A stretch of DNA of 64,000 nucleotides from Flavobacterium sp. CG_23.5 (GTDB lineage Bacteria; Bacteroidota; Bacteroidia; Flavobacteriales; Flavobacteriaceae), in the NCBI RefSeq assembly GCF_017875765.1, contig NZ_JAGGNA010000001.1, forward strand, positions 1 through 64,000. Direction: 5' to 3'. Positions 25,879 to 45,304 of the stretch are shown here, piece after piece. The notes below the pieces were generated by a model, which was not told where the DNA came from, did no database searches, and was given only the letters and a program-made list of their open reading frames with translations. Every line of letters starts with the position of its first letter. The stretch's first letter is position 1. Position numbers and translations under genes: made by a program.

Positions 25879-25885
25879 ATTTTTT

Positions 25886-27148: not shown

Positions 27149-28725
27149 AACCCTACATTTTGAATTTGTTGCATCAAGGCATTCGCTTCTTCGTTCAAAG
27201 TGGCTAGTTCGCTGTGAATTTCGGTCATGCGGCCATGGTAATCAAAATCCATGTCTAGCGTCACCACTACGCCTACATAACGACCAGGAGTTAGACTATA
27301 ATCTTGGGCAGCCACTTCTTCAATATCTACAATCTTGCAAAGCCCTTCTACATCTTCGTATTTTCCTGTTGGGAATTTGTCTTTAAACCAAGCGTTGTCT
27401 TTACCAACTACAGGTTTTTCACCTCGAAAAAGTTGCATGATGGCAGTCAATCCTTCTAGTTGTTCTTCGCTAAAATCATTGATCGTCGTGCTTACTTTTC
27501 TAAAAGTGTTGCGAGCATCAATCATTAGGATTTTGTTTTTACTTTCGGGCTTTTTGCCTTTGTTGTAAAACCAAACGTGGCAAGGCAAGGAACGGGTGTA
27601 AAAAAAGTTGTTTCCTACTGAGACAATACATTCTACCGCTCCAGTTTCTATCAGTTCTTTACGAATTCGTTTTTCGGCATTGCCCGCATCAGTAGCTGAT
27701 GAAGCCATTACAAAACCCGCACGCCCAGTAGCATTTAGATACGAATAGAAATACTGCATCCAAAGGTAGTTTCCGTTGCCAATAGATCCCGCACCCGTAA
27801 GAGGCGCGCCAAAAGGGAGGCGTTCGTCTTCGGCCAAGAACTTGTTTTTGGCATCGACCTTATCCACATTAAATGGCGGATTTGCCATGACAAAATCACA
27901 TTTTTCGGTTAGATTGTGTGGGTTGGTATAAAAACTATTGCCTTCAATGATCTTGCCTTCAATTCCGTGGATGGCTAAGTTCATTTTGGCTAGTTTGGTA
28001 TTGTTGCTCTTTAGCTCGGTACCATAAACCGTGATTGCTTCGTTGACGCTTTTATTTTCGTGATCGTGAATAAAATGCGCCGTTTGCACAAACATTCCAC
28101 CAGATCCACAAGCGGGATCGTGAATGATTCCGTGATTGGGCTGGATAAAATTAACAATCAAGTTGACCAATGATGGCGGCGTAAAAAACTCACCACCTTC
28201 TTGCGCACCCGCACCTTGCATAGAGAATTTCATCAAGAAAAACTCATAGATGCGTCCAAAGACATCGCCTTTGGCGTGACGCACGGCATCTTTATTAAAA
28301 ACACGAACTAAATCACGCAATAATTTATCGTCAAATTCTTGGTAGCTTTTTGGGAGAATACCCGCTAGATCGGGATATTCGGCCTCAATCAATTTCATGG
28401 CATTGTTGATGGCTTCGGCTATATCTTCACTTTCGGGCAAAGCGGCTAAGTGATCGTATTTGGCTTTTTCGGGTAGCATGATGGCGCCTGCTCCGGCATA
28501 ATCATCTTTGGTCGCTTCGCGTTGTGTGCCCGTACGTGGGTTTATGGGTAATGATTTTGCTATGCTAATTTTGGCATCTTCGTATCTGTTTTGCGCAAAA
28601 CTTAACAGTACTAATCCAAGTAAAGGGTCTTTGTATTCGGCTGCAGTAAGTTTAGAGTTTCCCCTTAGTTCGTCTGCGGCATCCCAGAGTTCTTTTTCTA
28701 AATTCTTGATTTGGTCTTGGGTCAT
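27145..28725 (-). CDS. hsdM: Type I restriction enzyme, M (methylase) subunit
   Basis: 526 residues. The SAM-binding motif DPACGSGGMF (about 205) and catalytic NPPF in VMANPPFNVDK (about 281) mark a gamma-class adenine N6 methylase. The N-terminal helical domain and the C-terminal ITPGRYVGV-like segment (SLTPGRYVGVVV) match HsdM. It is the first gene of the operon, and its upstream region holds two motifs shared with the operon starting at 42248. Confidence 0.95.
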   Translation of the reverse strand: MTQDQIKNLEKELWDAADELRGNSKLTAAEYKDPLLGLVLLSFAQNRYEDAKISIAKSLPINPRTGTQREATKDDYAGAGAIMLPEKAKYDHLAALPESEDIAEAINNAMKLIEAEYPDLAGILPKSYQEFDDKLLRDLVRVFNKDAVRHAKGDVFGRIYEFFLMKFSMQGAGAQEGGEFFTPPSLVNLIVNFIQPNHGIIHDPACGSGGMFVQTAHFIHDHENKSVNEAITVYGTELKSNNTKLAKMNLAIHGIEGKIIEGNSFYTNPHNLTEKCDFVMANPPFNVDKVDAKNKFLAEDERLPFGAPLTGAGSIGNGNYLWMQYFYSYLNATGRAGFVMASSATDAGNAEKRIRKELIETGAVECIVSVGNNFFYTRSLPCHVWFYNKGKKPESKNKILMIDARNTFRKVSTTINDFSEEQLEGLTAIMQLFRGEKPVVGKDNAWFKDKFPTGKYEDVEGLCKIVDIEEVAAQDYSLTPGRYVGVVVTLDMDFDYHGRMTEIHSELATLNEEANALMQQIQNVGL

Positions 28726-28968: not shown

Positions 28969-29277
28969 CTAAGATTTACGATTCAATTTTATTTTAGTGC
29001 CTTTGATGACAGAAATCAATAATCCTATACCAGTAATTGCATCTACTATATTCCAAATTGTTCTGCCCAAGGCGATCTTCATAAAGGGTTGAAATAATAT
29101 CGCCAAAGCAATATATAGAAACATCTCATTTTTCCTGTTTTGTTCCTTGGCCTTATATCCCAAATAGGCAAAACTGACCATTGCTGTAAAACGAACAAAT
29201 TGGTAGTAACCGTAAGGCATTTCGAGAAGGCAGAGTAGGAGCAGTATTGCCAGTATTATTTTCGTTGATTTTTCCAT
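28969..29277 (-). CDS. DUF6804-like small membrane protein
   Basis: 102 residues with three to four hydrophobic helices (IILAILLLLCLLEMPYGYYQ, FVRFTAMVSFAYLGY, FLYIALAILFQPFMKIALG, and the IVDAITGIGLLISVI segment). The MPYGYYQ-VRF and FQPFxKIALGRxxWNIVD patterns recall the DUF6804 family, often seen near restriction loci in Bacteroidota. It is the last gene of the long operon, 68 bp after the nuclease-like gene, and may be independent of it. Function unknown. Confidence 0.6.
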   Translation of the reverse strand: MEKSTKIILAILLLLCLLEMPYGYYQFVRFTAMVSFAYLGYKAKEQNRKNEMFLYIALAILFQPFMKIALGRTIWNIVDAITGIGLLISVIKGTKIKLNRKS

Positions 29278-29345
29278 AATGATTTAAATGAAAATTACTT
29301 TATGCCTGTTATTAAACTCTGTTTTATATTAGATCAAAGAGAATC

Positions 29346-30185
29346 TTAGTTTAAAGAAAACTCAAACCAGATAGGGATATGGTCTGAAATCATTCTCGCC
29401 TCTTTTAAGGAACCGAAATTCTTGTAAAAAGAAATGATTCCTTTATCTATTGTATTGATTTTGGCGCTGTTGTAAAACATATTATCATATTCGGAAGCCA
29501 GGTATTTACCCTTTTTGACTACTTGTTTTAACGAAGTTTTCTGGTTGACAAGAATTGATTGGTAGCCCATTTTTCTTAACGGGATGAATACCGTATGTGA
29601 TTGTGGGCAATTGAAATCGCCCGCAAATATCAAATTCAGGCTAGGATATTCCCCTGGTAAAAATTTAAAATATTTTATTTCACTTTCAGGTTGTTTGCTT
29701 TTTGTAATTGCATGGAAATTAACTACTGTAAATTTATTTTTTTTATATTCGAAGGTGCAATAAAAGGGTTCTCGATCTATTTCTAAATGATATTTTTTTT
29801 CTAACCAGGCTCTCCCAATTTTCTTTAGATTGGCTGTCTTCCAAATAAAAGCATAACGTTCCCTCTTATAGGCACTACTAGATGTAGGATCACTTATTAC
29901 ATAATCCCATTTACTTCCTTTACGATTCAATTCATCGGCCAGTTTGGCTACGGCTTGGGCCCCACCATGCCCAGCTACGACTTCCTGTATGGCTATAATG
30001 TCGTAGTTTTTTAAAGTATTTGCAATGAAATTTATTTCAACTTCAGATTTTGATTTTCCAAAGTTTTGAATATTCCATGACACTAGTTTAACTTGTGAAA
30101 ATAGGGTAGTAGTGCAAAGTAAAAATAACAGGAATGTTTTTCTATTGATTTTATTCAAAAGTGATTTCATTTTTTTTATAATCAA
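29346..30185 (-). CDS. Secreted endonuclease/exonuclease/phosphatase (DNase I fold)
   Basis: 279 residues with an N-terminal signal peptide (FLLFLLCTTTLFSQ). Hallmarks of the EEP fold are present: VKLVSWNIQNFG, IIAIQEVV (metal-binding Glu), a histidine in VVNFHAITK, LIFAGDFNCPQ (catalytic Asp/Asn) and ISDHIPIWF (catalytic Asp-His). It therefore probably cleaves phosphodiester bonds in DNA or RNA, in the periplasm or outside. The start overlaps the protease gene; a Met at 30170 would shorten the overlap. Being in an operon with membrane motor genes, it could be the effector that attacks incoming DNA. Confidence 0.8.
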   Translation of the reverse strand: MIIKKMKSLLNKINRKTFLLFLLCTTTLFSQVKLVSWNIQNFGKSKSEVEINFIANTLKNYDIIAIQEVVAGHGGAQAVAKLADELNRKGSKWDYVISDPTSSSAYKRERYAFIWKTANLKKIGRAWLEKKYHLEIDREPFYCTFEYKKNKFTVVNFHAITKSKQPESEIKYFKFLPGEYPSLNLIFAGDFNCPQSHTVFIPLRKMGYQSILVNQKTSLKQVVKKGKYLASEYDNMFYNSAKINTIDKGIISFYKNFGSLKEARMISDHIPIWFEFSLN

Positions 30186-30669
30186 TTGACACTCTACCGA
30201 ATTGGGCCAGTGCTGATTGTCCTAATAACAAAGGAGCTTCATTATTATGAACGATAGAAGCTTTTACATTCTTTAAAGTTCTATTTCCTAATTTTACAGT
30301 CCGAAGATTTATTATTGTTCCTTCAGCTATACTACCATCAGCAATTTGATATTGCTGCGACCCCAGGATATCCTCTTTTAAAAGTTTTCCTTGTCTGTAT
30401 AGGAACATTGCTTCTACATCTGAAATGGTAATATCTGATGCGCCAGTATCAAAAATAAAATTCATTTTTGTTTCGTTAATAAACACTGGTATTTTATAGA
30501 TACCCTGTTCTTCCGACATTACAATCATCGTTTTGCCATGTCCAAGAGAAGAGGATGTTTGAGAGCGATGTTCTCTTGAATTATTTCTTCCAGACCGAGA
30601 ACAACCATTACAGTCAACAAAAAACATAGACAAGATTATTGCCAAAACACTAAGTATAATTTTTCTCAT
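30151..30669 (-). CDS. Retropepsin-like aspartic protease lipoprotein
   Basis: 172 residues. The N-terminal leader ends in a likely lipobox (SMFFVDC), so the protein is probably anchored in a membrane facing the periplasm. The single catalytic motif FDTGASD is followed by a typical retropepsin-fold sequence (GTIINLRTVKLGNRTLKNVK, PLLLGQSALAQFG). Such proteases act as dimers. It starts 1 bp from the MotB-like gene and overlaps the nuclease gene, so the three are probably translated together. Its substrate may be another protein of the operon. Confidence 0.8.
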   Translation of the reverse strand: MRKIILSVLAIILSMFFVDCNGCSRSGRNNSREHRSQTSSSLGHGKTMIVMSEEQGIYKIPVFINETKMNFIFDTGASDITISDVEAMFLYRQGKLLKEDILGSQQYQIADGSIAEGTIINLRTVKLGNRTLKNVKASIVHNNEAPLLLGQSALAQFGRVSIDYKKNEITFE

Positions 30670-30670
30670 A

Positions 30671-31282
30671 TTAATTTTCTATTTTTCCTATTTTTGGAAT
30701 AATTTGAATCAAAAATTGTTGGTTTTTATATTCATTCTTAATTCCTTCAAACCTACCAACACCTTTAGTACCACTGCCGGCAATTTGTAGTTCACAAAAA
30801 GTGGGGTCAAAATAAATACTACTCTGATTCCATAGTTTCAACAGTGATAAAGCTCTTTGATAACTTAATTCATCATTGTATTTATAATTATCATTTGACG
30901 ACATTCCTTCAATGATTATCATATATTTTATATCATTATTTTGGTACTTGGTTTGTAATCTTTTGATTAAACTTTCTATGTTCCTTCCTACCTCTAATAA
31001 GTACTCTTTGTATTCAGGTTTAATAGTACTTTTTGCAGGGTCAAATTGAATTTGTTTCTTTAAAGAGAAACGTTTATACTCATCCTGATAATAAAAATAA
31101 CGTTTATCCAATTCTTTTACAGAGTTCTGAATTTCAACAATCCTTTTTAATTGTTCTACTGTTGCTTTTTGTTGTCTTTTCATCATGGCAATAGTAAGGA
31201 CAAATAAAACAAGCATAATAAAAAATAGACTGGTCATTAAATCGGCATAACTTGCCCAGAAAAAATTTGTTTTTTTTGACAT
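30671..31282 (-). CDS. MotB/ZorB-like membrane protein with OmpA-like domain
   Basis: 203 residues. The N-terminal helix FFWASYADLMTSLFFIMLVL matches the MotB ion-channel helix, including the conserved Asp of the YADLMT motif. A coiled-coil stretch leads to an OmpA-like peptidoglycan-binding domain (FDPAKSTIKPEYKEYL, IIIEGMSS, SYQRALSLLKLW). With the MotA-like protein it should form an ion-driven stator-type complex. ZorB of the Zorya defence system has the same build. No ZorC, ZorD or ZorE homologue is visible nearby. Confidence 0.8.
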   Translation of the reverse strand: MSKKTNFFWASYADLMTSLFFIMLVLFVLTIAMMKRQQKATVEQLKRIVEIQNSVKELDKRYFYYQDEYKRFSLKKQIQFDPAKSTIKPEYKEYLLEVGRNIESLIKRLQTKYQNNDIKYMIIIEGMSSNDNYKYNDELSYQRALSLLKLWNQSSIYFDPTFCELQIAGSGTKGVGRFEGIKNEYKNQQFLIQIIPKIGKIEN

Positions 31283-31289
31283 AAATATT

Positions 31290-32585
31290 TTAAAATAATT
31301 GATATATTGACCAAAAACAGTAACCTACGCCAATAATTGCACCAGATCCAAAAAAAGCATATGATAGATATATTATAGTGTCAGGTAGTTTAAAATCAAC
31401 TTGTTTTTGGTTTTTTAATACTTGTGTTAATTCTGTGATACCCTTACCTAAGTTATCTAATTTTTCGTTTTGAGTTGAAGTTGCTTTCTCAATACTAGAC
31501 ATCGTTTTTTCTAACTTACCTAATTTTTTAAGTTCATTTAGATTTCCTCTATCGTTTCCTAATAAATTCTCTAAAAAGCTTTCTTCTTTTATAGTAATAT
31601 TTCTAATTGATTCCATTTGAGCGTCAATATGTTCTTTCAGTTTTTCTAAACTTTTTGTAATAGAATTATCGACATCAATGACTGCATCTGAAACAAATTG
31701 TTTTCTATTAGACACTTCTTGTAATTCGGATTGTAAGATGCTTATTATTTCTTTATTTGCAGTAATATTTGTGCCAATAGCTTCAGCAACTAATTCTATA
31801 GATTGAGTTCTTTCCAGTTGATTGCCTATTTGAAAATTCAATTTCTGAGCATTGTCCACAAATGAATTTACTTGATGTAAATAGGTGTTAAATTTTTCAA
31901 ATTCTTTTGTGCTAGTGCGTAATTCCTTTAAAACGTCAACATTAATTTTTGCTAATTGTGCGACATCAACTTCCTTTAATTCATGCATTAAATTAACCTG
32001 GCTATCAAATGACTCTAGGATTTTTCCTAGCACACCATTAAAACTTACGACATTAGTAGAAAAAGTATCATTGAACTTTAGCAAATTGGCCTGAAGAGAA
32101 TAGATACTTGAGGAAGTATTTTGCGACAAAACGGGCAAAAGATGAGTTTGTAACCAAGTAAAAAAATCGTTTTTAAGATTTTCTGCTTTTGTTTTTGCTC
32201 CTTTATATCTCCAGCCAGAAAGTACTACAGTTAGTAGCAGCCCTGTAAAACTTGCTATCATAGCTATTTTTACTCCTCCAATCAGTATGTCAATTGCTTT
32301 TTCAAAATTCTCATCGCTAATACTTGGCATTGCAAAAAGTCCTACGACTATTCCTAACATAGTCCCCATTAACCCTAGATATAATGGAATTGGTAACATT
32401 GTATTAATTTCTTCATCAACAGCATCCGTATTTCTTTCTACAACGTCTTTTATTAAATTAAAGTCACTAACCGCTCCTTTATTTCTAAGTAAATAGGTGT
32501 TTACTGAATTCAAAACTTTATCGAAAACATCATTCGATTCCCCTTTTGATTTTATTAATGTAACTTCAATATATTTTGCTTCCAT
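31290..32585 (-). CDS. MotA/ExbB/ZorA-like channel protein with long coiled coil
   Basis: 431 residues. Two helices near residues 65-90 and 100-130 (PIPLYLGLMGTMLGIVVGLF, VKIAMIASFTGLLLTVVLSG) match the MotA/TolQ/ExbB channel core. A long helical tail (about 140-390; LESFDSQVNLMHELKEVD, KLGKLEKTMSSIEKATS) is followed by a last membrane helix at the very C-terminus (YLSYAFFGSGAIIGVGYCFW). ZorA also has a channel core with a long cytoplasmic tail, but this C-terminal helix is unexpected and may hold the tail at the membrane. It is 7 bp upstream of the MotB-like gene. Confidence 0.8.
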   Translation of the reverse strand: MEAKYIEVTLIKSKGESNDVFDKVLNSVNTYLLRNKGAVSDFNLIKDVVERNTDAVDEEINTMLPIPLYLGLMGTMLGIVVGLFAMPSISDENFEKAIDILIGGVKIAMIASFTGLLLTVVLSGWRYKGAKTKAENLKNDFFTWLQTHLLPVLSQNTSSSIYSLQANLLKFNDTFSTNVVSFNGVLGKILESFDSQVNLMHELKEVDVAQLAKINVDVLKELRTSTKEFEKFNTYLHQVNSFVDNAQKLNFQIGNQLERTQSIELVAEAIGTNITANKEIISILQSELQEVSNRKQFVSDAVIDVDNSITKSLEKLKEHIDAQMESIRNITIKEESFLENLLGNDRGNLNELKKLGKLEKTMSSIEKATSTQNEKLDNLGKGITELTQVLKNQKQVDFKLPDTIIYLSYAFFGSGAIIGVGYCFWSIYQLF

Positions 32586-32599
32586 GTTTTTTGTTCGTT

Positions 32600-33100
32600 T
32601 TATGAGATGTATTTTTTGTCCTTAAGTCTATACCATCCCATATCTTCATACTGATACATTTGTGATTTTGGTATTTTCTCCTCTAAATTACCCTTACTCA
32701 TCCAAATAGTTTCCTCTTCTATATCATCGATATCAATTGATTCAGGAAATAAGTCGGAATCAAATTCATCATCAGTATTTAATTCGTCATCAGTCTTTTT
32801 ATTTTTTATATTTTCAAGAATATTGAGAAGTTTTGGATTTTTATCTACGACTATTTCCTCTTGGATCTCTATTTCTAAAGATGGTGATGCACTACTAAAA
32901 CGATTAATATTGTTTAGTATTTCTTCGACTGTTATCGTTTTTATTTGATCTTCACGAATAAATACTTTTACAGTTTCAAAACTATCTATATCAGGAACAA
33001 TAGTTTTAAAAAGGGCTATTTTTTTTGAGGTTGTAATTGCCACCGTAAACTGTACAATCACAATTATTATTATTAGTGCGCCTATTATATAATCATGCAT
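32600..33100 (-). CDS. Single-helix acidic membrane protein
   Basis: 166 residues. An N-terminal membrane helix (YIIGALIIIIVIVQFTVAIT) is followed by a soluble, very acidic region (about 100-140; runs of Asp and Glu). The last part (MYQYEDMGWYRLKDKKYIS) is compact and aromatic. No known domain is recognised. It sits between a two-membrane-part protein gene (2 bp) and the MotA-like gene (14 bp), so it is probably a subunit or adaptor of the same membrane complex. Confidence 0.65.
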   Translation of the reverse strand: MHDYIIGALIIIIVIVQFTVAITTSKKIALFKTIVPDIDSFETVKVFIREDQIKTITVEEILNNINRFSSASPSLEIEIQEEIVVDKNPKLLNILENIKNKKTDDELNTDDEFDSDLFPESIDIDDIEEETIWMSKGNLEEKIPKSQMYQYEDMGWYRLKDKKYIS

Positions 33101-33102
33101 GT

Positions 33103-34302
33103 CTATTCGTATTTAATTTTAGCTTTTGTTTTTACTATCCATTGGTTACTCCTTTTCTCAACAATACCGGAAGTGATAACTAAACTGTTAGCACTCTGGT
33201 TTAATGCATTTAATTCTTCACAAACAGGTTTTATATATTTGTTAGGGTAATCTAGAATTAATTTTTTCTTTTCCTTTATAATTTCAAAACTCGCTAAATT
33301 AGGGTTGTTGTTATAAATTGTAAATTTAAATACCGCATCACCTAAACTAACATCATCTTCTGTATCAAAATATCCACTTTCATGCGGTGCATGTTTATAA
33401 AATATTTTATCGTCTTGTTGTACTATTGGAGTTTTAGGAACTTCGGTTATAGCAATGACGGGATTTGGAGCGTCATTTTTTGATTGTATTTCTAAACCTT
33501 TTATTTTATCTTCTAAATCCCTTATTTTACTTTTTAGAATATTCAAAGAATCTTCTGATACTATGTTTTGCTTATTCGAAGAAATAGGTGAATATGGTGT
33601 AGTATTAAATACTCTTTTTCCTTCATTATCTTTTAGCATAGATTCCAACTGTTTCTTAGTTGCAAAATTTCTTTGTTTTAGATAAATAAAATGAGCTGCG
33701 ATTAATATAAAAAGAATAAAACTAAACCCATAGTCTGTCATAAAATTTCTAATGCTATGGTTTGCTGTTTTAGTTTCAGTATTAATATTTTCGGTATATG
33801 CTGAAGCGGTTTCTTGCTCTACTTGTGATGGAGGGTCAGAATTATGAAGTTGACCTGAAGGATCTGAAGTTTGACTATCATTATTTGAAACAGCGTAATT
33901 TTCTGATGTAATTGAAGTTATTTTATCATTAATCTTTTGGATAATGTTTTTAATCTCAACACCTTCTCTTTTTTTAGCAAATGCTTTAATTTTTTCATAT
34001 TTAGACGAATTAAAAACATCATTAGTTAAAAAAATCACTGAGAATTCTTTATTGTTATTTGAGGTTTTAAGTTTTTGAAATTCTTTATAAAGATCCAGTG
34101 TTTTAGTGTCTGCCTTTGGAATATCGTTTTCTTGTATCGTTGTTTTTTCGCAGTCTACTGCACTATTTCCTAAAGCTTCGTTTATACACACGCATGTCAT
34201 GTTATCTACAACTTTTTTAAATTGTTCTTGACTTAATTGTACCTGTGCATTAGCTAAAAAAGTAGTCAGTAAAATGACTATCATCATTACTATTTTTTTC
34301 AT
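33103..34302 (-). CDS. Periplasm-to-cytoplasm bitopic protein of unknown family
   Basis: 399 residues. A signal peptide (MKKIVMMIVILLTTFLANAQ) is followed by a periplasmic part with two Cys (CVCINEAL) and a low-complexity Ser/Thr/Gln linker. A membrane helix (about 192-210; YGFSFILFILIAAHFIYL), a coiled coil (about 245-280) and a cytoplasmic C-terminal domain follow (about 300-399; FYKHAPHESGYFDTEDD, ending WIVKTKAKIKYE). The topology suits passing a signal across the inner membrane. It could link an outside sensor to the actin-like protein coded directly upstream. Confidence 0.65.
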   Translation of the reverse strand: MKKIVMMIVILLTTFLANAQVQLSQEQFKKVVDNMTCVCINEALGNSAVDCEKTTIQENDIPKADTKTLDLYKEFQKLKTSNNNKEFSVIFLTNDVFNSSKYEKIKAFAKKREGVEIKNIIQKINDKITSITSENYAVSNNDSQTSDPSGQLHNSDPPSQVEQETASAYTENINTETKTANHSIRNFMTDYGFSFILFILIAAHFIYLKQRNFATKKQLESMLKDNEGKRVFNTTPYSPISSNKQNIVSEDSLNILKSKIRDLEDKIKGLEIQSKNDAPNPVIAITEVPKTPIVQQDDKIFYKHAPHESGYFDTEDDVSLGDAVFKFTIYNNNPNLASFEIIKEKKKLILDYPNKYIKPVCEELNALNQSANSLVITSGIVEKRSNQWIVKTKAKIKYE

Positions 34303-34401
34303 GTTTTATTAGAAATTACGAATTGTTTCTGTTAAATAAATTATCATCATTATCATTATTCTCAAATAATTTTATTTTATGACAATGGATATATTAATAG
34401 T

Positions 34402-37400
34402 TTAAAGATTTTGATGTATTTTATAAGCTAAATTATTAAGACCTCCTATGAGAGGGTAAAAAAACAATGTTTCCATAAGCTCCTCGTCTTGATTTCCTTT
34501 TAACTCCGCTTTTTTAGAATCGATTCCTTTCTTAACATTGTCAACAACGTCCTCTTTTAGGTAATTCTTATAGTTTTCAAAGTGAGAAGGGTTTATACCA
34601 AGTTCATCACTAAATTTGAACTTACTATTAATGCTAAAGAACCAATCTATAAAGCTGATATATTCATCAGCGACATTTTTATAAAAGATGTCGTTTAAGT
34701 CGGGGTATTTTATTTTATTTTCATTGTTAAATGCAAGATTATTGCTTCCTATATAGATGGTTTCAATATCTTTAATGTTTAAATCTCTATCTTCAGGATT
34801 TTGAAATAAAGCACCAATACAACTAATTTCTTTCGGGTTATTAACTTTTTTTAAATCAATCTTTGTTTTATTCTCGTTAACCAGCACATCGTCAAAAATA
34901 GTTTGAGACAGCTTTTGTAATGCAGCATCACTACCTATTAAGTTTAGAATTTTAGAACCTGTCCCGCTAAAAGTTATATATCTTGGCGAAACAATATCCT
35001 TATCTTTCATTAATTTGGCAATATGATATAAAATTGCAGCGTAAAATAGTGTAACTACAACCTTCAAATCAATGTCTTTATTCAAATCTTTTGAAAATGA
35101 AATAGGTGCAGCTTTACTTACTACTTGATCATTTCCTTCTAAAGAAAGTAAGAATGAAATTATTTCTTCTGATTTTCTATTTTGATTTAAGACATCCAAA
35201 ACACTTTTCAATCCATACAATCCATTACTATCTAACAGACTCGAATATTTTTCTGTATATTTTTGTACAAAACCATTCATGTTTGAATTTCTGTCTCCAA
35301 AAGCATCTCCAAAAAGAGCATTTCCAGCAAAACGAAATGAAGTTGCCAAAAATGGCTTATTTCCTTTATAGATTACAACATCTGTCGTACCACCACCTAT
35401 ATCTATTGAAACAACAGAATTACTCCCAGCGGAAACCCCCATTTCGTTTCTGAAATAGTAAAATGGCGTTATAGATTCAGCAACCTTAATAGGCGCTTTT
35501 ACCTTATTGATATGTTTTTCAAATAATTCAGTCCAGATAACTTGCAATTGATTTATCTTGAAAGAAGACATACTAGTTGGATACATCCAAATAAGCTCCG
35601 TTTTTTCTAAACTGCCTTTTTCTAAAAGAACTTTATTTTTTATTAATAGTATAATCTTTTCCAGAAACGTTTCAATGCGTTTCTCGTTGTGATCTGTCGA
35701 TTCCCATTTTAAATTAGATACAATTTTAGTATTACTCGGAGCTACTTTTTTCCCGTAGTAAAAGGGAATATTTGTATCTGCCAACGAGTGGACGGCTTTA
35801 TTATAATCTAATTCTTCATTATTGCTTATAACAGTTCTGGTTGGAAAGAAATTAATTATTTTAGGTATTTGCTCAAGTTCAATATGCTCTTCAAGCAGTC
35901 CTAAGTTTGAGTTTCTGAATAATTTTTCAGTATGCTCATTCATTAAAAATAAAGGTTCAATTTGACTATCACTAGGAGAGATTTCAAATTTCATAGCGTT
36001 GCCATTATCTTTTTTATATTCGATATGAGTATTAGTTGTGCCGAAATCAATAGCAAAGGTAAACTGTGAAACACCAGAGGGTTCTTTTAAGAGTGGAATT
36101 AGAATTCCTTTTGCCCATTGGTGTCGTATTTCTATAAACTCAAAATTTTCAAGAACTGTATGGTAATTACTATCTAGTTGAGCTCCTTTTTTGCGGTCAC
36201 TTCGCTTTGATGGTAAAAGGTTATTTTTAACTTCTCCTCCTTGATTGTAAAAAGAGAGATTGTATTCGCTATGACTATAAAGGTTATGATTATCAATGTT
36301 CATAACTCCTACACGGTAAGACGGTGTACCTTGCGTGGATTTTAAAAATGGATAGATTGTAATGTTGAACCTGTTTTCAATGATTGCACCTACATTTCTA
36401 ATAGTATCTGGTTCTGCCAATTGATGTTCCTGAACAGCCCGTTTGTAAATTCTAGAATAAGTGATGTATTTATTGTCTCGGACGGGTACTCTGAGTGTAA
36501 CACTCACACTAGCATTAATACCTTCTTTAATTTCAACCGTCTTTTTGCCATCAGGCATAACCCCCATTAGATCTTTTATGTTGAAATAATCAAAATATAT
36601 TTTTTTTATTGGGAGCAAATATCCTTTATTTGACCCTTCTATAAGATTACCTGTGAAGTATTTTTCATGGTCAATAGAATAGGGAGTAGTAATGATATAG
36701 TCTTCAAAAAAATCTCCAATAGTTAAATAAGGATATATTGAATCATCGAAAGGAAGCTTTCTTTCTTTTAATGGTTTATCGTCAAAAAAATCTGCTCTAT
36801 TTTTTTTATCCCAAAGGGCAGTAGTATAAATAATTTTTTCAGAAAAATCATCAATTGGCAGTACTAAGGGTTTTATTACATCTTTACATTTATGAGAATC
36901 AATAACAAAACCACTATTATCCTGAATATTAGATGGGCGCTCCGTCTTTTTACGAAGTGGAAAGTCTAATATTTCTACAATACTTCCATCTGTGCCAGTA
37001 GTTAGTTTTTCAAATTCAGAATTGAAGTTTTCTAAAGTGTAGTTGTTTAAAATGTTTCTTTGTTCATGAGTCAGCATTTTATAATTCATTTCTAAATAAT
37101 CATCTACAGCTTTAAAAAGCGGATTAAATCTAGGCATGAATTTTCGGATACCGAAAATAAATTTCACGTAATTAAAATCTCTTTTATATAATGGTTGGTA
37201 CTGATCATCAAAAACAATATCAGTTCCAAATCTAATATCTATGTTTAATTTATTAGCGGAAGTAAAAAACAAACTTGCAGGTGAAGTACCTCCAATAATA
37301 TTCAGTTCATTGTTACCTAATTTATAATTTAAGAGATAAAGTCTTTCAATTTTATCAAAATTGTAAGCTTTAGCGTCTTGCTCTAAATACAGTTTTAGTG

Positions 37401-37779
37401 TTTCACCTAATAATCGATGTTTTTTACTCGAAGATTTTAATAGTTTATTTAAATCATTGGTTTTATCCCAAATTATTATATTTATTTTTTCTTTTAATTT
37501 ATCGATATTGAAAAATATTTCACCTACATCAAAACAATCGGATACCATTTTATGAAAAATAGTTTTGCCGTCAACTTCATTTGAATTTACCAAGTTTTCA
37601 AATGCAGTTTTAACTAGGTCTATTCTTGCAAAGGGACTAGGTATGGAGGTGATTTCTTTATTTGCAGATGATCCGCTAGGATCTTGGATAGCTTCTATGG
37701 CATTTTTACCATAGGCTGTTGATGTTTGCCAATCTTCAATATTATTGCTACCATCATGGAATCTAAATACTTTTGCCAT
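34402..37779 (-). CDS. Large actin/Hsp70-like ATPase (SrfB-like?)
   Basis: 1125 residues. The phosphate-binding loops of the actin/Hsp70 fold are clear: FAIDFGTTNTHIEY near residue 577 and VVSIDIGGGTTDVVIYKG near 790, plus an ITFSGTGSKIL adenosine motif near 935. About 570 residues precede the ATPase and have no recognised domain. The size and central ATPase recall SrfB-type proteins, but I cannot confirm that. The gene lies 5 bp after the tubulin-like gene, so the cell makes an actin-like and a tubulin-like protein from one message. A chaperone-like or filament role is possible. Confidence 0.75.
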   Translation of the reverse strand: MAKVFRFHDGSNNIEDWQTSTAYGKNAIEAIQDPSGSSANKEITSIPSPFARIDLVKTAFENLVNSNEVDGKTIFHKMVSDCFDVGEIFFNIDKLKEKINIIIWDKTNDLNKLLKSSSKKHRLLGETLKLYLEQDAKAYNFDKIERLYLLNYKLGNNELNIIGGTSPASLFFTSANKLNIDIRFGTDIVFDDQYQPLYKRDFNYVKFIFGIRKFMPRFNPLFKAVDDYLEMNYKMLTHEQRNILNNYTLENFNSEFEKLTTGTDGSIVEILDFPLRKKTERPSNIQDNSGFVIDSHKCKDVIKPLVLPIDDFSEKIIYTTALWDKKNRADFFDDKPLKERKLPFDDSIYPYLTIGDFFEDYIITTPYSIDHEKYFTGNLIEGSNKGYLLPIKKIYFDYFNIKDLMGVMPDGKKTVEIKEGINASVSVTLRVPVRDNKYITYSRIYKRAVQEHQLAEPDTIRNVGAIIENRFNITIYPFLKSTQGTPSYRVGVMNIDNHNLYSHSEYNLSFYNQGGEVKNNLLPSKRSDRKKGAQLDSNYHTVLENFEFIEIRHQWAKGILIPLLKEPSGVSQFTFAIDFGTTNTHIEYKKDNGNAMKFEISPSDSQIEPLFLMNEHTEKLFRNSNLGLLEEHIELEQIPKIINFFPTRTVISNNEELDYNKAVHSLADTNIPFYYGKKVAPSNTKIVSNLKWESTDHNEKRIETFLEKIILLIKNKVLLEKGSLEKTELIWMYPTSMSSFKINQLQVIWTELFEKHINKVKAPIKVAESITPFYYFRNEMGVSAGSNSVVSIDIGGGTTDVVIYKGNKPFLATSFRFAGNALFGDAFGDRNSNMNGFVQKYTEKYSSLLDSNGLYGLKSVLDVLNQNRKSEEIISFLLSLEGNDQVVSKAAPISFSKDLNKDIDLKVVVTLFYAAILYHIAKLMKDKDIVSPRYITFSGTGSKILNLIGSDAALQKLSQTIFDDVLVNENKTKIDLKKVNNPKEISCIGALFQNPEDRDLNIKDIETIYIGSNNLAFNNENKIKYPDLNDIFYKNVADEYISFIDWFFSINSKFKFSDELGINPSHFENYKNYLKEDVVDNVKKGIDSKKAELKGNQDEELMETLFFYPLIGGLNNLAYKIHQNL

Positions 37780-37784
37780 TATAC

Positions 37785-39224
37785 TTAAAAGTTAAATTTT
37801 TCTGTTACTAAAGCTTCTGTTGTAGTGTAAAATAAGTCCATGAACTGTTGTTCCTTGGATCCAGTATTAGTTGTTGTCTTATCTTGTTTAGAAAGCATAT
37901 AATTATAACGATTATAGTTTTTTCCACCAGATTCTAACCATCCAATATTTGGTCTAATACCTTTTACCATTTCAAATAAATTGGTGTCATTAACATCCAA
38001 GTTTAATGGGGAGAAACTTCTTTGATTATAATTCATTTCATTCAACCATTCTAAATAGTATTGATTGAATTTTTTTAAATAATTACTATAAAAAGGTTGT
38101 GTTAAAAGTGTAGTTGTATTTAAATTTTTTGCCCAAGTTTGGTCTGAACTACCTTGAATTTGATCCCTTAAATAAACTAAAAATTGAGTATATTGGGTTA
38201 ATGGTTTTTTTAGAAGTATTTGAGTTAGATCCCCTAGATTTTCATAAATAATAGATTGTGAATTAGATTTAATTCCAAATTCTTTATAAATTGGATTTTC
38301 TGCCTTTCCTTCATAATTACTTAATTCAGTTGATTCAGTTTTAGCGAAATCAATTATTGAAAGTGCCGCAACAATTTCAAGGAAATGGGCATCATTTTTT
38401 TGATTTACAGAACCCTCGACATTGGGATAGTCTTTTGTTAAATCATCACCTAAATAATATAAAGCATTTACTGAATTATTGCCACTAATATTTTCTTCAT
38501 AATAGGACAAAGCGGCTTTTGTTTTTGAGATAAAAGTAGATTTATCAATTTTACTATCTTCATCAGGAGCCACCCCAAAATAAGGAAGCATTGTGATAGC
38601 TCCTATAGGAGCATCTTGAAGATATTTCCATGTGGGCAAATCATGATCAGCTCCCCTTATATTTTTCACTAATAACGGAAAGCCAGCAGCACCAGTACCG
38701 CCAAAAATCGAACTTATGATAAAAATCCTATCATCTTGATTGAAAGACGATGCAAACTTTAGAAAATCTTCTGATTGTTTGAACTGGTTTAGTACTACGC
38801 TTCCAATATTTGGGTTTCCCTTGAAACCAACCTCCATGTCAGAGTTTAGGTTTTCTTCTGAAAACAATAAATTTATTAAAGCTTTATTATTGTCATCTAA
38901 ACCACTGTATTCAATATAATCTTTAAATCGATCGTTTTTAATATCGCTTAATGTAAGTCTAAAGTTTTGGGTAATATTAGAAATTTTAGTTTTGTAAAAT
39001 TGATTTTTATCTACATCAGAAAAGCTCAACTTATTGTGAATGTTTTGATAGTTTTTTAAAATATCTATTGTACGTGTAACGTCACCATTAGCTTCATCCG
39101 GATCAATAATAATAGGTACTACTTCATATTGATTAATATCTACACCAGTCGCCAAAAGCATTGCCAGTGATTTTATCACTCTTGAACCAGTCCCGCCAAT
39201 TCCAAATACATATAATTTTGCCAT
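37785..39224 (-). CDS. Tubulin/FtsZ-like GTPase
   Basis: 479 residues. The N-terminal YVFGIGGTGSRVIKSLAML and the central SSIFGGTGAAGFPLLVKNI correspond to the first nucleotide-binding loop and the tubulin G-box (GGTGxG). An Asp-rich IIIDPDEANGD strand follows the first loop. It resembles the Pfam group called tubulin-like rather than FtsZ itself, which is coded in the division cluster. Filament formation is unproven. It is tightly packed with the actin-like gene (5 bp) and a membrane protein gene (10 bp). Confidence 0.78.
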   Translation of the reverse strand: MAKLYVFGIGGTGSRVIKSLAMLLATGVDINQYEVVPIIIDPDEANGDVTRTIDILKNYQNIHNKLSFSDVDKNQFYKTKISNITQNFRLTLSDIKNDRFKDYIEYSGLDDNNKALINLLFSEENLNSDMEVGFKGNPNIGSVVLNQFKQSEDFLKFASSFNQDDRIFIISSIFGGTGAAGFPLLVKNIRGADHDLPTWKYLQDAPIGAITMLPYFGVAPDEDSKIDKSTFISKTKAALSYYEENISGNNSVNALYYLGDDLTKDYPNVEGSVNQKNDAHFLEIVAALSIIDFAKTESTELSNYEGKAENPIYKEFGIKSNSQSIIYENLGDLTQILLKKPLTQYTQFLVYLRDQIQGSSDQTWAKNLNTTTLLTQPFYSNYLKKFNQYYLEWLNEMNYNQRSFSPLNLDVNDTNLFEMVKGIRPNIGWLESGGKNYNRYNYMLSKQDKTTTNTGSKEQQFMDLFYTTTEALVTEKFNF

Positions 39225-39234
39225 AATTTATTTT

Positions 39235-39663
39235 TTAAAAAGGTGTTTTACTAGCACGAACACTTTTGAATTTTAATACTATTGAAAAAAAGAAACTGAA
39301 AATTACTGTCCACAGTAAGTTTACCATTGAGAAATTGATATGATCTGTTATAGAGTGGGGATTACCATCTGATGAAGTGGAATAAAAGTCTTCCATTGCG
39401 GTAACACTATAGAAGTAAGCGGAAATAAAATTCACTATACCAATTACCAAAAGCCAAATAAACCAATACCTTTTTTTAAAAAAACCATTATAATTTGAAA
39501 TGAAATAGTAATAGCTTGCAATAAGTACAAAAGACGTGCTGAGCATAATAAATCCTATTATTGAAAAGATTCCTGACTCGTACATGTCATCAGAAAAGTT
39601 TTGAATATAAAATAAATCTAAAGGATGAAATCCATCATATAAGGTTGCGAAAAAATCATTCAT
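39235..39663 (-). CDS. Four-helix membrane protein
   Basis: 142 residues with four predicted helices (GIFSIIGFIMLSTSFVLIAS, YWFIWLLVIGIVNFISAYFY, VNLLWTVIFSFFFSIVLKF and a weaker one before them). No family is recognised. It is packed between the lipoprotein gene (2 bp) and the tubulin-like gene (10 bp), so it is probably a membrane anchor or subunit of the same complex. Confidence 0.65.
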   Translation of the reverse strand: MNDFFATLYDGFHPLDLFYIQNFSDDMYESGIFSIIGFIMLSTSFVLIASYYYFISNYNGFFKKRYWFIWLLVIGIVNFISAYFYSVTAMEDFYSTSSDGNPHSITDHINFSMVNLLWTVIFSFFFSIVLKFKSVRASKTPF

Positions 39664-39665
39664 AA

Positions 39666-41147
39666 TTATTTTTTAATGTTAATGGTTAGTTCTAAATAGT
39701 TATTGTTTTTTGACTGTGTTTCGTATGCTTCACTAATTCCCTCAATTAAGTACTTTATTCCAAATGTACTATTAGGGCTTTTTAAAATATTACTATCATC
39801 ATTGGTACTGGTAGTATAAACCCAATTTGGAATTTGTTTGTTTAAAGTGAAAGATAGATTTGTGAAATTTGGTTTAGTAGATTCAAATACAATATAATGC
39901 GTTGGTTCTGCTTTAGCTTTGGAAAGCATATTTATTGAAGAAGCTCCAAGCTGTTTTTTGTCGAACTTATATATGCCTTTTATTTTATAATCACCTTCTC
40001 TAATTCTATAATTAGATTTGTCAGATACATAACTATCTTCAATAGGCACGTTGCTTAAGTCTAATGCTACTGAAAAAATAAAGCTAGAGCTATTTCTATT
40101 ATTTATTGAAACGTCTTCAATGCCCTGCACTGCTCCATTATTTTTGTATTCTCTGTCAGGTTTATATCTACCGGAATCTTCCTTCGTGTCTATTACAGAA
40201 TAATAAACTTCTTTAGAATAGTCTTTTAATGTTAAGTTGTATATATTCTCAAATCCTTCTACTTTGTTTTTTGATAGCTCAATATTTGAATTAAATTTCG
40301 TCATCGCTTTTTCACTTCCAATTATACTCATATAATAGGGCCTAGATATATTATTTAATTGTGTTTTTTTATTGTCTTTGTCATAATAGGTGCCATTAAA
40401 TGACGAGTTCAATTTCACAATAGTTGTAGCCAATGTCTCTTTGTTTTTGAATTTTGTCAAAAAAGCATCTTTGGTTAAACTTTTTTGGTCACTTAGTAAA
40501 TCCTCTGTTTTATTTCCTTCTATAGAATAAATGCAATCTGATAAAAGAATTGAAATTGTGTTTTGGGATGTTTTTGTCAATATTTGTTTGAAAATATTAT
40601 TCAAATTGCTTGAATAAGTGTCGCCTACTTTGAATGTTTTTGTGTTAAGAGAATTTGAAAAATTCACGATATTACCCTCAATATTAGTCGGATATATAGC
40701 AGAATTGATAAAATTTATTTTTAAATTCTTTTCATCATAATAATACTTTAGCATTACTAATAAATCACGAATTGCCCCTTTGAATTGAGTGTTTCCTTGC
40801 ACATAGCCATTCATACTACCCGAATTTTCGATATAAACATTGACAAAATAATCTTTAGATTCATCAACATTATTTCTTTTTTCAACTTTTTCGCCTTCTT
40901 TTTCTAAAAATGAAATCAATTTTACTTCATCAAAACTTCCATTTGTAAAAAATTTTTTAAATTTTCTTTCGTTGTCAAAAAGTTTTATGTGATCAATTAA
41001 TTTGTCTAATTCATCTACGGTTATTTTGGAGTCACTTTTAGAATATTCCAAATAGGAATCTTCAAAGACGTCATATTCGCCACCACAACCAATAGTAGTT
41101 AAGAGAAGAGTAAAGAGTAAGAATCTAAATAGTTTATTCATTGTCAT
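39666..41147 (-). CDS. VWA-like lipoprotein
   Basis: 493 residues. The leader ends at a lipobox (LLLTTIGCGG), so it is a lipoprotein. Residues about 100-290 look like a von Willebrand A domain: FVNVYIENSGSMNGYV aligns with the MIDAS DxSxS motif, with Glu in place of the first Asp, and ISILLSDCIYSI matches the later LSD strand. A beta-rich C-terminal half follows. VWA domains bind protein partners, often through a metal. Here it could sense envelope contact or an incoming particle. Its stop overlaps the DUF805 gene boundary by 1 bp. Confidence 0.7.
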   Translation of the reverse strand: MTMNKLFRFLLFTLLLTTIGCGGEYDVFEDSYLEYSKSDSKITVDELDKLIDHIKLFDNERKFKKFFTNGSFDEVKLISFLEKEGEKVEKRNNVDESKDYFVNVYIENSGSMNGYVQGNTQFKGAIRDLLVMLKYYYDEKNLKINFINSAIYPTNIEGNIVNFSNSLNTKTFKVGDTYSSNLNNIFKQILTKTSQNTISILLSDCIYSIEGNKTEDLLSDQKSLTKDAFLTKFKNKETLATTIVKLNSSFNGTYYDKDNKKTQLNNISRPYYMSIIGSEKAMTKFNSNIELSKNKVEGFENIYNLTLKDYSKEVYYSVIDTKEDSGRYKPDREYKNNGAVQGIEDVSINNRNSSSFIFSVALDLSNVPIEDSYVSDKSNYRIREGDYKIKGIYKFDKKQLGASSINMLSKAKAEPTHYIVFESTKPNFTNLSFTLNKQIPNWVYTTSTNDDSNILKSPNSTFGIKYLIEGISEAYETQSKNNNYLELTINIKK

Positions 41148-41776
41148 TATTTTATTTTAATAATAATATTTCCGTCACTCACGTCCAATATATTAATACC
41201 CTCTATTGTTTTTTTAAATTCATTAGAAAGATACTGACTAGTATTGTCATGCGTTATTATAATAGAACCTGTAGAATCCAATAAGGTATTATTTAAACTT
41301 TTAACAAAAGGTATGTTGCGAAGCTGACGCAGTACATCTTGAAAATTACTATGGTTTACATTTCTAACTTCCATGTTAGTAACATTGTTTTTTATTGTAG
41401 AATCATCGTAAACGGGAGGCTTAGCTACTTGTTCCGTTACTGTATTTACTTCAGTTTTTGTATACGCTTTTGGTTCGTTTTTTAATTTAGGATTCTCACC
41501 GTGTTTATTTAAATAGGTATCTCCTTCTATAAACAACATCCCTAACACATAAAATGGAATTATCTGGAACCATCCATTTTTGTCCATGTCATGACACCTC
41601 TTAGCCCCTTGTGCCCATAAAAACCATAACATTGGTATTATTGCCAAGCCCATTCCTGGATTGTCTTTTTTTGTAATTTCGATTATCGCAGTATAAAGTA
41701 TTATATAGATAATGATACTTATTCCATACTCAGTTCTTCTTATTCTACCGTCAAATGAAAAAGGTTTTTTAAACAT
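41147..41776 (-). CDS. DUF805 membrane protein with soluble tail
   Basis: 209 residues. The first ~90 residues are a DUF805 domain: FSFDGRIRRTEYG, three helices, and AKRCHDMDKNGWFQIIPFYV. An added tail (about 100-209) has no known domain and ends in a compact ILDVSDGNIIIKIK beta stretch. DUF805 proteins are small inner-membrane proteins of unknown role, common in prophages and defence loci. It overlaps the lipoprotein gene by 1 bp. Confidence 0.8.
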   Translation of the reverse strand: MFKKPFSFDGRIRRTEYGISIIIYIILYTAIIEITKKDNPGMGLAIIPMLWFLWAQGAKRCHDMDKNGWFQIIPFYVLGMLFIEGDTYLNKHGENPKLKNEPKAYTKTEVNTVTEQVAKPPVYDDSTIKNNVTNMEVRNVNHSNFQDVLRQLRNIPFVKSLNNTLLDSTGSIIITHDNTSQYLSNEFKKTIEGINILDVSDGNIIIKIK

Positions 41777-41921
41777 TTAATTCTGATTAAATTAATTTTT
41801 GATGTTTTCTGTTTATAATGATTACAACCAGTCTGTTTACATTAAGCGATGTAAAGAAGAGCATGCACGATTTTTTCACGAAGCTTTTATTTTGAAATAT
41901 TTTTTACCTAAGAAACAGTGA

Positions 41922-42248
41922 TTATAATAACTTTGCTTTTTTAATCTGAAATTCTTCAGCCGATATTATTCCTTTTTCCATTAATCCATGTAATTTTCCT
42001 AATTCTTCCGCGGTGTTTATGTTTCTTGTTTGATAAAGAACTGCGCCTAGATTATATTTTGCATTAAATTTATTTTCATCCATCGTCAGGAAAATAATAA
42101 AATCAACAAAGGCTATTATAGCTGGAATAAATGTCCAACAGAAAATAAGGTAAAGTAGCCCAAGACCACCTTGTCCTAGATAAAAACGATGAACACCGAT
42201 CCCTCCTAAAAAGAAAGCGAAAATTGCAGCTGTTGTTTTATTTTTCAT
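41922..42248 (-). CDS. TM2 plus SHOCT domain membrane protein
   Basis: 108 residues. An N-terminal TM2 domain (FFLGGIGVHRFYLGQGGLGL, second helix IPAIIAFVDFIIFL) is joined to a C-terminal SHOCT helix pair (TAEELGKLHGLMEKGIISAE). It is the first gene of the 13-gene operon, 145 bp before the DUF805 gene. A second promoter in that gap is possible. SHOCT segments are thought to mediate oligomerisation. Confidence 0.85.
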   Translation of the reverse strand: MKNKTTAAIFAFFLGGIGVHRFYLGQGGLGLLYLIFCWTFIPAIIAFVDFIIFLTMDENKFNAKYNLGAVLYQTRNINTAEELGKLHGLMEKGIISAEEFQIKKAKLL

Positions 42249-42412: not shown

Positions 42413-42560
42413 CTTTACGGTTTCCCACATTTGAAGAAAATAAATATCTAATTTGAACTTTATTTACATTTGTTTTGCATCAAATTATAGTCTTTTGATT
42501 GGTAAATTGTAAATTAAGGTGGTTTTAAATGATTTCGCAATACCCACTTTTAGTGATATT
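42413..42560. promoter_or_regulatory. Upstream motifs of the 13-gene operon
   Basis: CTTTACGGTTTCCC (42413-42426) is the reverse complement of the motif at 28806-28819. The 21-bp segment at 42540-42560 is identical to 28907-28927. In both places the 21-mer lies further from the start codon than the 14-mer (starts at 42248 and 28725). The first 11 bases, CTTTACGGTTT, also occur in the adhesin operator at 11687-11697. The rest of the 42249-42608 gap shows no gene. Confidence 0.5.
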
Positions 42561-43368: not shown

Positions 43369-43980
43369 TTATCGTTTGTCTTTGTCCGCTTTGTCAAAAG
43401 CGATTAAGTTCAGCATGTTTCTCAAGCGAGATCTGACTCGATTGCCGTAGGCGGTTTCTATTTCGGATGCGGAGAGGTTTGTGGTGATGTGGGTGTAGAT
43501 TTTCTTAGATATAAAAATGTCGTATCTGGAGAGAATAATTTCTGCCATGACATTGCATTCGTTTCCAAAGTATTTGAGGTTCTTTTCGGTGCCTAAATCA
43601 TCGAAACAGTAGTTTTTATGTTCAGCATGGGTGTTGTGTCCATGGCTGTAGCGCTGAATTACTTCATATCCATCTTTGATGAACTCAAAACTAATGTCCC
43701 GGCACGTTTTCATAAAGAACTTTTTATTTGGTTGAGGTACGTAGCGCATCAGAGCCATCAAAGAGGTTTTACCGCAGCCTACTGGGCCAGAAAGAAGAAT
43801 TCCTTTGCTGAGGTCGATTTCAAACTTAGCTGCAGTATATTGATCATCCAGAAAATAGCAAATCAGTTTTGTGATAGTTGTGGTGTCTTGTTCTAAGAAG
43901 TGAAATTTTTCTCCAAAATCCTTTTTGCCTTTTTTTTCTAACCAAGCAATAATTTCTGGATAATTGTATTTTGATGTCAT
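43369..43980 (-). CDS. DnaC/IstB-like P-loop ATPase of a mobile element
   Basis: 203 residues from the Met at 43980. The frame stays open to 44109, but that would overlap the next gene and add an unlikely leader. Walker A is GPVGCGKTSLM, Walker B is YCFDDLGTE, and an ITTNLSASEIETAYG sensor/arginine-finger region follows with RVRSRL. This fits helicase-loader-type ATPases in Bacteroidota elements. Together with the replication-type protein directly upstream it probably supports element replication or mobilisation. Confidence 0.8.
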   Translation of the reverse strand: MTSKYNYPEIIAWLEKKGKKDFGEKFHFLEQDTTTITKLICYFLDDQYTAAKFEIDLSKGILLSGPVGCGKTSLMALMRYVPQPNKKFFMKTCRDISFEFIKDGYEVIQRYSHGHNTHAEHKNYCFDDLGTEKNLKYFGNECNVMAEIILSRYDIFISKKIYTHITTNLSASEIETAYGNRVRSRLRNMLNLIAFDKADKDKR

Positions 43981-44105
43981 AAGGTAGTGGTAAAAGGTTA
44001 GAGATGGGGTTGATAGGTGGTTCTCGATATATTTTTTGTTTCGTTTCACTACACAAAAAAACACTTTCCGAAATAAATTCGAAATAAACGAGACTGACGA
44101 AGAAA

Positions 44106-44969: not shown

Positions 44970-45001
44970 ATTCTGGTGATTAGTGAAAAATGATTCTAAT
45001 T

Positions 45002-45304
45002 TTATTGATTTAGCATTTTGGCTATGTCGTCGTATTTATAGTATAGGATGCCTCCGATGCGGTTGTAATTTAGTGTTCCGTTGACGCGAAGGTTTTGGAG
45101 TGTGCCGGGTGAGATCTTGAGCAGTTTTCTAACCTCGGAAGATTTTAGCCATTGGGTTGGCTGCTCTTTTAGTGCCACTATTTCTTTAATTTCAGAAAGA
45201 ATGATGTTGCTAAAGTTTAGCAAGTCTCTTTTTGTAATGGGTTGGTGGTTTAGTAGTTCTAAATTTTCTACTTCAGGGAATAGTTTTTTCGGATGTAAGT
45301 TCAT
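45002..45304 (-). CDS. HTH (excisionase-like) DNA-binding protein
   Basis: 100 residues from the Met at 45304 (10 more if started at 45334). The C-terminal half is an HTH_17/MerR-type domain: WLKSSEVRKLLKISPGTLQN, LRVNGTLNYNRIGGILYYKY, DDIAKMLNQ. In Bacteroidota elements such genes sit between rteC/int and the mobilisation genes and act as excision or control factors. Short direct repeats lie directly upstream and may be its binding sites. Confidence 0.8.
   Translation of the reverse strand: MNLHPKKLFPEVENLELLNHQPITKRDLLNFSNIILSEIKEIVALKEQPTQWLKSSEVRKLLKISPGTLQNLRVNGTLNYNRIGGILYYKYDDIAKMLNQ

Follow-up and report, generated by a model that had tools for sequence, protein, structure and literature searches.

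A modular operon linking a ZorAB-like motor to tubulin-like and actin-like NTPases in Flavobacterium and other bacteria

The locus and its question

What kind of machine would combine an ion-driven motor of the MotAB/ZorAB type with relatives of both tubulin and actin? The question is raised by an operon of Flavobacterium sp. CG_23.5, located on the minus strand at 28969..42248 of the 64,000-nucleotide stretch analyzed here (the window; contig NZ_JAGGNA010000001.1, positions 1 to 64,000). A first-pass annotation, made from the letters and their translations, had read thirteen closely packed genes in it, among them a motor pair, two cytoskeletal NTPases and exported effectors, and had proposed a new kind of envelope-level conflict system. 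Comparison with other genomes supports a conserved unit in which a motor is joined to two cytoskeleton-type NTPases, and shows that its vWA-TubL-ATPase core is constant and its output module exchangeable. By analogy, we see an even chance that the operon encodes a modular envelope-anchored NTPase machine, the membrane end of which would work like that of Zorya. Here it lies on a mobile element rich in anti-virus genes, yet nearly every species of some related bacteria carries it, so that the gene cluster may be either a novel guard of the envelope or one of its basic machines.

The NTPase core

All thirteen open reading frames (ORFs) are present where they had been placed, with intergenic gaps of -35 to 145 bp, 11 of the 12 being shorter than 100 bp and nine shorter than 15 bp or overlapping. 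The tubulin/FtsZ-like GTPase TubL (37785..39224; 479 residues) contains an FtsZ-like N-terminal domain, residues 1 to ~345, with the loops GGTGSR and GGTGAAGFP, followed by a helical C-terminal remainder. In the model, no helix beyond residue 331 exceeds 23 residues, which does not amount to an extended coiled coil. Pfam analysis reports Tubulin_2 (PF13809) at 22.1 bits, under the cut-off of 27, which is exceeded by a cyanobacterial TubL relative (40.8 bits). The following ATPase (34402..37779; 1125 residues) comprises an unassigned N-terminal half and an actin/Hsp70-type domain (residues ~570-1001), a nucleotide-binding fold with the phosphate motifs DFGTTN and DIGGGTTD. Its FtsA match (17.8 bits) is also under the cut-off (31.8), and an SG[TA]GSK motif occurs in 7 of 40 ATPase ORFs, a low count. 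For both NTPases the first-pass assignment is upheld by structure models, which support tubulin-like and actin-like folds of the two domains where the sequence scores stay below cut-off; among the structural matches listed, scarcely any covers the N-terminal half of the ATPase or the C-terminal part of TubL. Filament formation or chaperone activity of the ATPase would be in keeping with the actin/Hsp70 superfamily.

Two further core genes precede TubL and one usual core member follows the ATPase. The vWA-like lipoprotein (39666..41147) is assigned, as in the first-pass annotation, without a Pfam match, here by position and by its MIDAS-like motif ENSGS; within the family, a [DE]xSxS-type motif is found anywhere in 36 of 40 ORFs and in register in 20, and a loose lipobox pattern in 29. 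TM142 (39235..39663) is a small protein with three predicted helices. After a gap of 99 bp, u399 (33103..34302) exhibits a signal-like first segment, a helix near residues 190-208 and a conserved C-terminal domain.

The motor proteins

The MotA/ZorA-like and MotB/ZorB-like pair of the first-pass annotation is recovered by PADLOC, whose top matches are ZorA2 (37.3 bits) for the motor subunit core with its long tail (31290..32585) and ZorB1 (63.4 bits) for its partner (30671..31282). Pfam scores the former 20.4 bits with MotA_ExbB, under the cut-off of 22.9, and the OmpA-like domain of the latter 27.4 bits against 27.2. The pair is thus of the ZorAB type found in Zorya according to PADLOC, though far below the NCBIfam cut-offs (ZorB1, 35.8 bits vs 400). 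Searched against the PDB, the ZorB-like profile returns three chains, all of the MotB/ZorB type: 8vvn_B (1.6e-12), 8qyd_F (1.2e-8) and 8vvi_A (3.2e-4). We take 8vvn and 8vvi to be Zorya proteins, and 8qyk, which contains the same sequence as 8qyd_F, is named ZorAB by its depositors. The ZorB-like subunit has a motor-type helix with a conserved aspartate, Asp14, that is invariant in 10 of 10 sequences, and a D.MT-type motif is present in 29 of 30 ORFs. The ZorA profile matches the solved ZorA weakly (8qyk_A, 0.0015), ranked under two designed proteins, and an LGL..T motif is found in 23 of 33 ZorA-like ORFs, a low count.

ZorA-like proteins of seven related loci (L003, L004, L005 and L027-L030 in our numbering) have at their N-terminus a hydrophobic helix and the stretch after it. 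In the window, L001 and L002 this part is a gene of its own, u166 (32600..33100), which L006 also possesses. Comparison of u166 with the ZorA N-terminus by hhalign gives a probability of 79% (P 1.7e-5), three controls reaching 0.3-1.3%, and BLASTP against two full-length ZorA-like proteins returns weak hits (E 0.013 and 0.003). On this profile match, the motor gene of the window lineage is evidently divided in two, u166 being the separated N-terminal helix segment. The three membrane proteins of no assigned family in the first-pass annotation are therefore reduced to two.

Accessory genes and the operon boundary

The remaining genes are accessory, and their first-pass assignments all have Pfam matches. 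The first gene of the operon encodes a TM2-SHOCT membrane protein (41922..42248; TM2 63.6 bits, SHOCT 29.1 bits), followed after 145 bp by a DUF805 membrane protein (41147..41776; 45.0 bits). At the other end are a gag-type clan-AA aspartic protease, AspP (30151..30669; 56.2 bits), and a DNase I-fold enzyme of the endonuclease/exonuclease/phosphatase fold, EEP (29346..30185; 34.5 bits), whose best NCBIfam match is MnuA (80.6 bits vs 185). Both carry signal-like N-termini. The last gene, after a further 68 bp, encodes a DUF6804 protein (28969..29277; 125.2 bits). It is present as annotated, but it is matched in none of the other loci among the 22 mapped below; EEP is therefore probably the last gene of the unit, with DUF6804 outside it.

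A constant core with exchangeable parts

Twenty-two loci were mapped with profiles made in this analysis and iterated on those very loci; the maps display ORFs of at least 70 residues, and L007-L020, short stretches of genomes represented by longer loci, were omitted. Tabulated in this way, the adjacency of TubL and ATPase is retained in 21 of the 22 loci, the exception (L026) being a broken locus, and 16 loci have matches to each of vWA, TM142, TubL and ATPase. The place of TM142 is occupied in L022, L023, L034 and L035 by a small membrane protein that no profile matches, the vWA gene of L022 lies on the opposite strand, and in L034 the vWA place is taken by a 517-residue protein without a match. 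L033 begins at a contig end. Since the core gene order recurs in other phyla, a chance arrangement is implausible.

A ZorA-like gene is found in 13 of the 22 loci and ZorB in 12, the match in L035 being weak (8e-4). The joining of the motor to the two NTPases, as the first-pass annotation had it, thus recurs beyond the window. Other genes can stand in the motor's place: L034 carries three TerD-like genes, of which two were scanned (173.5 and 229.5 bits), together with an OmpA protein, L033 lacks ZorA and carries an OmpA protein, and L129 and L130 hold the core with different genes after it. The TerD-family genes behind the TubL-ATPase core of L034 (4175-6063) are an observation in their own right, a link between Ter and tubulin-like systems. 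AspP is mapped in six loci and EEP in four (two ORFs in L002), and neither is matched in 20 further Hymenobacter loci. Of the exported effectors first proposed, the signal-like N-termini stand, but both proteins are accessory rather than part of the common unit. The DUF805 gene also occurs in L001, L002, L006 and L031, and TM2-SHOCT is matched in one other mapped locus, L023.

Distribution and allele exchange

TubL is found in 13 of 395 genomes sampled from the phylum, with the ATPase adjacent in 12 of these, and in 2 of 249 Flavobacterium genomes, namely the window's own and one divergent, leaving 247 without. TubL and the ATPase are each present in all 101 Hymenobacter genomes, and ZorB in 99; the two without it (G668, G682) are also those whose ATPase and TubL matches score lowest. 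TubL is present in 94 of 120 genomes of Hymenobacter's family and in 44 of 101 of another family (f10), over 16 of 36 genera, the absences there being listed in part. The 20 further Hymenobacter loci all possess vWA, TM142, TubL, ATPase (two ORFs in L074), u399 and ZorA, and 19 possess ZorB, L080 ending before it. The Hymenobacter operon occupies group-specific fixed positions.

Among mobile replicons, TubL has no match in phage records at E 1e-5, and PHROGs returns weak matches only. Three putative viral contigs of IMG/VR (L126-L128) match TubL with the core order; in each, the fetched stretch contains vWA, TM142 and TubL and ends in an ATPase ORF (940-974 residues). Six plasmid records match TubL, five cyanobacterial and one a 1.77-Mb Prevotella record that is possibly a chromosome. 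The cyanobacterial plasmids L022 and L023 carry vWA, a membrane protein, TubL and ATPase, this ATPase being 18% identical to the window's.

Within Hymenobacter, 21 of the 23 genomes with fetched loci were used for identity tables and trees, leaving aside G696 (ATPase and GyrA split) and G674 (contig end before ZorB). Trees were of the 'quick' type without bootstrap, with GyrA alone as species-tree proxy, and the operon groups A-H were named after viewing the identity table, so that the p-values of the approximately unbiased (AU) test are not blind. Within groups, TubL and GyrA identities are alike (89/89% in A, 95/92% in D), whereas between groups TubL averages 43-69% and GyrA 79-92%. The GyrA tree pairs C with H (support 100) and D with F (99), both of which TubL rejects (AU 7e-41 and 1e-139, respectively), while the TubL tree pairs D with H (100), which GyrA rejects (AU 7.5e-45). 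Comparison of these trees shows horizontal replacement of operon alleles between Hymenobacter species. ZorB is 78-83% identical among groups B, D and E where TubL is 45-58% identical, which suggests partly independent histories for the two modules, motor and NTPase; the ZorB tree gives an AU value of 0.0102 for D+F. Universal presence together with exchange of alleles between species is to be expected under conflict-type selection, without proving conflict.

Genomic setting

The window operon is located in a mobile defence island. On one side, a type I restriction-modification operon (18001..28725, minus strand) encodes HsdR, HsdS and HsdM; between hsdR and hsdS lie a McrC-family gene, an AAA_5 gene whose place and domain make it McrB-like, and a gene for a 301-residue protein of no assigned family. 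Next to it, 13274..17940 contains a Fic-like gene (plus strand), a Drt2 reverse transcriptase (minus strand; E 4.8e-121) and a reverse transcriptase-associated WYL-YodC-type gene (plus strand; 1.2e-102), the latter two being divergent (14742-17940). A 2951-residue repeat protein beside a gene that by eye is PorP/SprF-like (1651-11596) lies possibly within the same element.

On the other side, a mobile-element module (43369..47770, minus strand) comprises an AAA-type P-loop protein with sub-threshold matches, u287, HTH_17, RteC and a tyrosine integrase; L001 holds an integrase of the same kind. A 20-bp att-like direct repeat (48017..48036, plus strand) equals the 3' end of tRNA-Ser and has exact copies at genome positions 85372, where a complete tRNA-Ser is found, and 3667466. 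The three repeats suggest two tandem integrative elements at one tRNA-Ser; if the single contig is circular, a ~52.8 kb element with the operon would be followed by one of ~37 kb.

Upstream of the operon, the 21-bp element AATATCACTAAAAGTGGGTAT (42540..42560, minus strand) has an exact copy upstream of the hsdM operon (28907-28927), two exact copies being found against none in 100 shuffles. Its 15-bp core occurs in nine exact genome copies (L131-L137 among them), each with a same-strand ORF at most ~520 bp downstream, and the 21-bp sequence is a candidate directional, promoter-like element. By eye, the two 15-bp sites that fall in the second element lie upstream of operons that look methyltransferase-like and nuclease/ATPase-like, respectively. 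A DUF805 RNA motif (RF03081; 42263..42328, minus strand; 67.2 bits vs gathering 51.1) lies directly upstream of the first gene, with further copies at genome positions 3273611-3273678 and 1304364-1304435. The three copies precede different kinds of genes, for TM2-SHOCT, a 93-residue protein and a 115-residue membrane protein, and six related loci return no match. A role of the motif as an operon marker is thus unsupported, and it may control a broader set of genes than its name implies.

A general location in defence islands is unsupported by Pfam and PADLOC scans of flanking genes elsewhere. Among ten flanking proteins scanned in eight loci, Pfam identifies one integrase, and most named proteins are ordinary enzymes or envelope proteins.

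Relation to known systems

Makarova and Koonin (2010; PMC2875224) described FtsZl1-vWA-OmpA as a predicted membrane-remodelling system that brings OmpA, vWA and tubulin-like genes together. They name a GTPase, kinases, vWA and OmpA as FtsZl1 associates, along with many families without recognised domains; the main text contains neither Hsp70 nor MotA as a term, and the parts consulted name no actin-like ATPase partner. The window operon shares the FtsZ-like N-terminal domain with helical C-terminus, the vWA and OmpA-type domains and the membrane proteins, but its TubL is devoid of the long coiled coil. Pfam matches neither a P-loop GTPase nor a protein kinase among the 13 window proteins, genes that are frequent but not obligatory with FtsZl1 in PMC2875224.

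With Zorya the operon shares the ZorA/ZorB-type pair, its OmpA-like domain of peptidoglycan-binding type and the long tail; it differs by its NTPase core in place of ZorCD, ZorE or ZorFG and by its split ZorA gene. In agreement with the first-pass annotation, which saw no ZorC/D/E-type effector, a PADLOC scan at E 0.1 of the ten proteins from EEP through vWA recovers none of the effectors ZorC to ZorG (DUF805, TM2-SHOCT and DUF6804 lie outside the scan). Kaur et al. (2020; PMC7159879) report tubulin and HSP70 themes, non-overlapping, in DO-GTPase/GAP1 conflict systems; these resemble our operon in that vWA proteins accompany tubulin or HSP70 proteins, in part at the membrane, and the term MotA does not appear there. 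No P-loop GTPase, hence no DO-GTPase, is matched by Pfam among the 13 proteins. The likeness to Ter systems lies in the TerD genes after the core of L034, and Pfam finds no TerD among the window operon proteins. At the level of search listings of the open-licence literature, we found no paper combining a motor with actin-like and tubulin-like proteins.

What the machine might do

ZorAB has been proposed to be an envelope sensor that signals via its tail (PMC11890865), and because of this analogy we propose a sensor-responder scheme. The wall-anchored, ion-driven ZorAB-type motor and the periplasmic vWA lipoprotein would sense an envelope disturbance, e.g. phage entry, and the signal would reach the cytoplasm via u399, the small membrane protein and the ZorA tail. 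TubL and the ATPase would be the cytoplasmic responders, switching or assembling at the inner membrane so as to wall off or repair the spot; the themes of the DO-GTPase systems make such an NTPase-assembly response plausible (PMC7159879). In Flavobacteriaceae, the exported protease and nuclease might act in the periplasm. Gene content and fold apart, the scheme is inferred, including the stoichiometry of the machine, its ion flow, the formation of filaments, the direction in which signals run and the antiviral purpose. A bolder version, which we consider rather unlikely, is a two-cytoskeleton immune machine in which the motor would gate actin-like/tubulin-like co-assembly where the inner membrane is under attack. 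The output (motor, TerD/OmpA or others) would be swapped on a constant vWA-TubL-ATPase core, the machine being present in every Hymenobacter genome examined but with alleles exchanged between species.

Several results weigh against a defence machine built around a motor. The motor is absent beside the core in nine of the 22 loci (L021, L022, L023, L024, whose contig ends there, L025 and L031-L034). The prevalence of TubL and the ATPase (101/101), ZorB (99/101) and, across the family, TubL (94/120) is unusual for a defence system. Scanned neighbours in L003, L025, L027, L028 and L032 are ordinary genes, and of ten flanking proteins from eight loci scanned with PADLOC, six have no match, two weak matches and two PDC-M72A matches; these last are repeat-type matches of three stretches each, one also matching an ankyrin model. 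By eye, five of the nine 15-bp copies precede genes unlike defence, and the ZorB tree does not reject C+H (p 0.155) or D+H (0.0545). The first-pass interpretation is upheld in part, namely for the conserved unit, while a conflict system is a possible reading: the mobile defence island, the element common with the hsdM operon and the exchanged alleles speak for it, whereas near-universality in Hymenobacter and ordinary neighbours in several genomes speak against it.

The prevalence in Hymenobacter and its family and the ordinary neighbours favour a housekeeping machine for envelope or membrane remodelling, a branch of FtsZl1-vWA-OmpA resident in Cytophagales-type lineages and elsewhere incidental mobile cargo, in line with the proposal of Makarova and Koonin. 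The spread over 16 of 36 genera in f10 and the fixed positions in Hymenobacter also fit it, while allele exchange with its conflicting trees, near-absence from the window's genus (247 of 249 genomes lack it) and the defence island do not. Because of the Hymenobacter universality and the ordinary neighbours, we retain it as a serious possibility, short of an even chance. A conflict system of the Ter or DO-GTPase type, now without its customary switch, would fit the TerD genes of L034 and the tubulin, HSP70 and vWA themes in DO-GTPase neighbourhoods (PMC7159879), but with neither TerD nor a P-loop GTPase matched in the operon it is very unlikely. More improbable still is a Zorya subtype with the two NTPases as effectors: the top PADLOC matches of both motor proteins and the sole PDB matches of the ZorB profile point that way, but it is disfavoured by the missing ZorC-G matches, the low NCBIfam ZorB1 score and the existence of the core without ZorAB. 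Least probable is a partition system, a TubZ/ParM-like pair segregating its carrier; it would account for the two NTPases and for the cyanobacterial plasmid copies, yet most loci lie on chromosome-sized contigs and include a lipoprotein, membrane proteins and the motor.

Significance

If the envelope-anchored NTPase machine is real, a single bacterial machine would link a motor driven by ion-motive force to the two great families of cytoskeletal NTPases, and the orphan FtsZl1-vWA context of 2010 would gain a testable machine. Hymenobacter would then be a natural host for functional study, and the ZorAB motor, apart from Zorya, would be a general envelope sensor plugged into varied cytoplasmic outputs.

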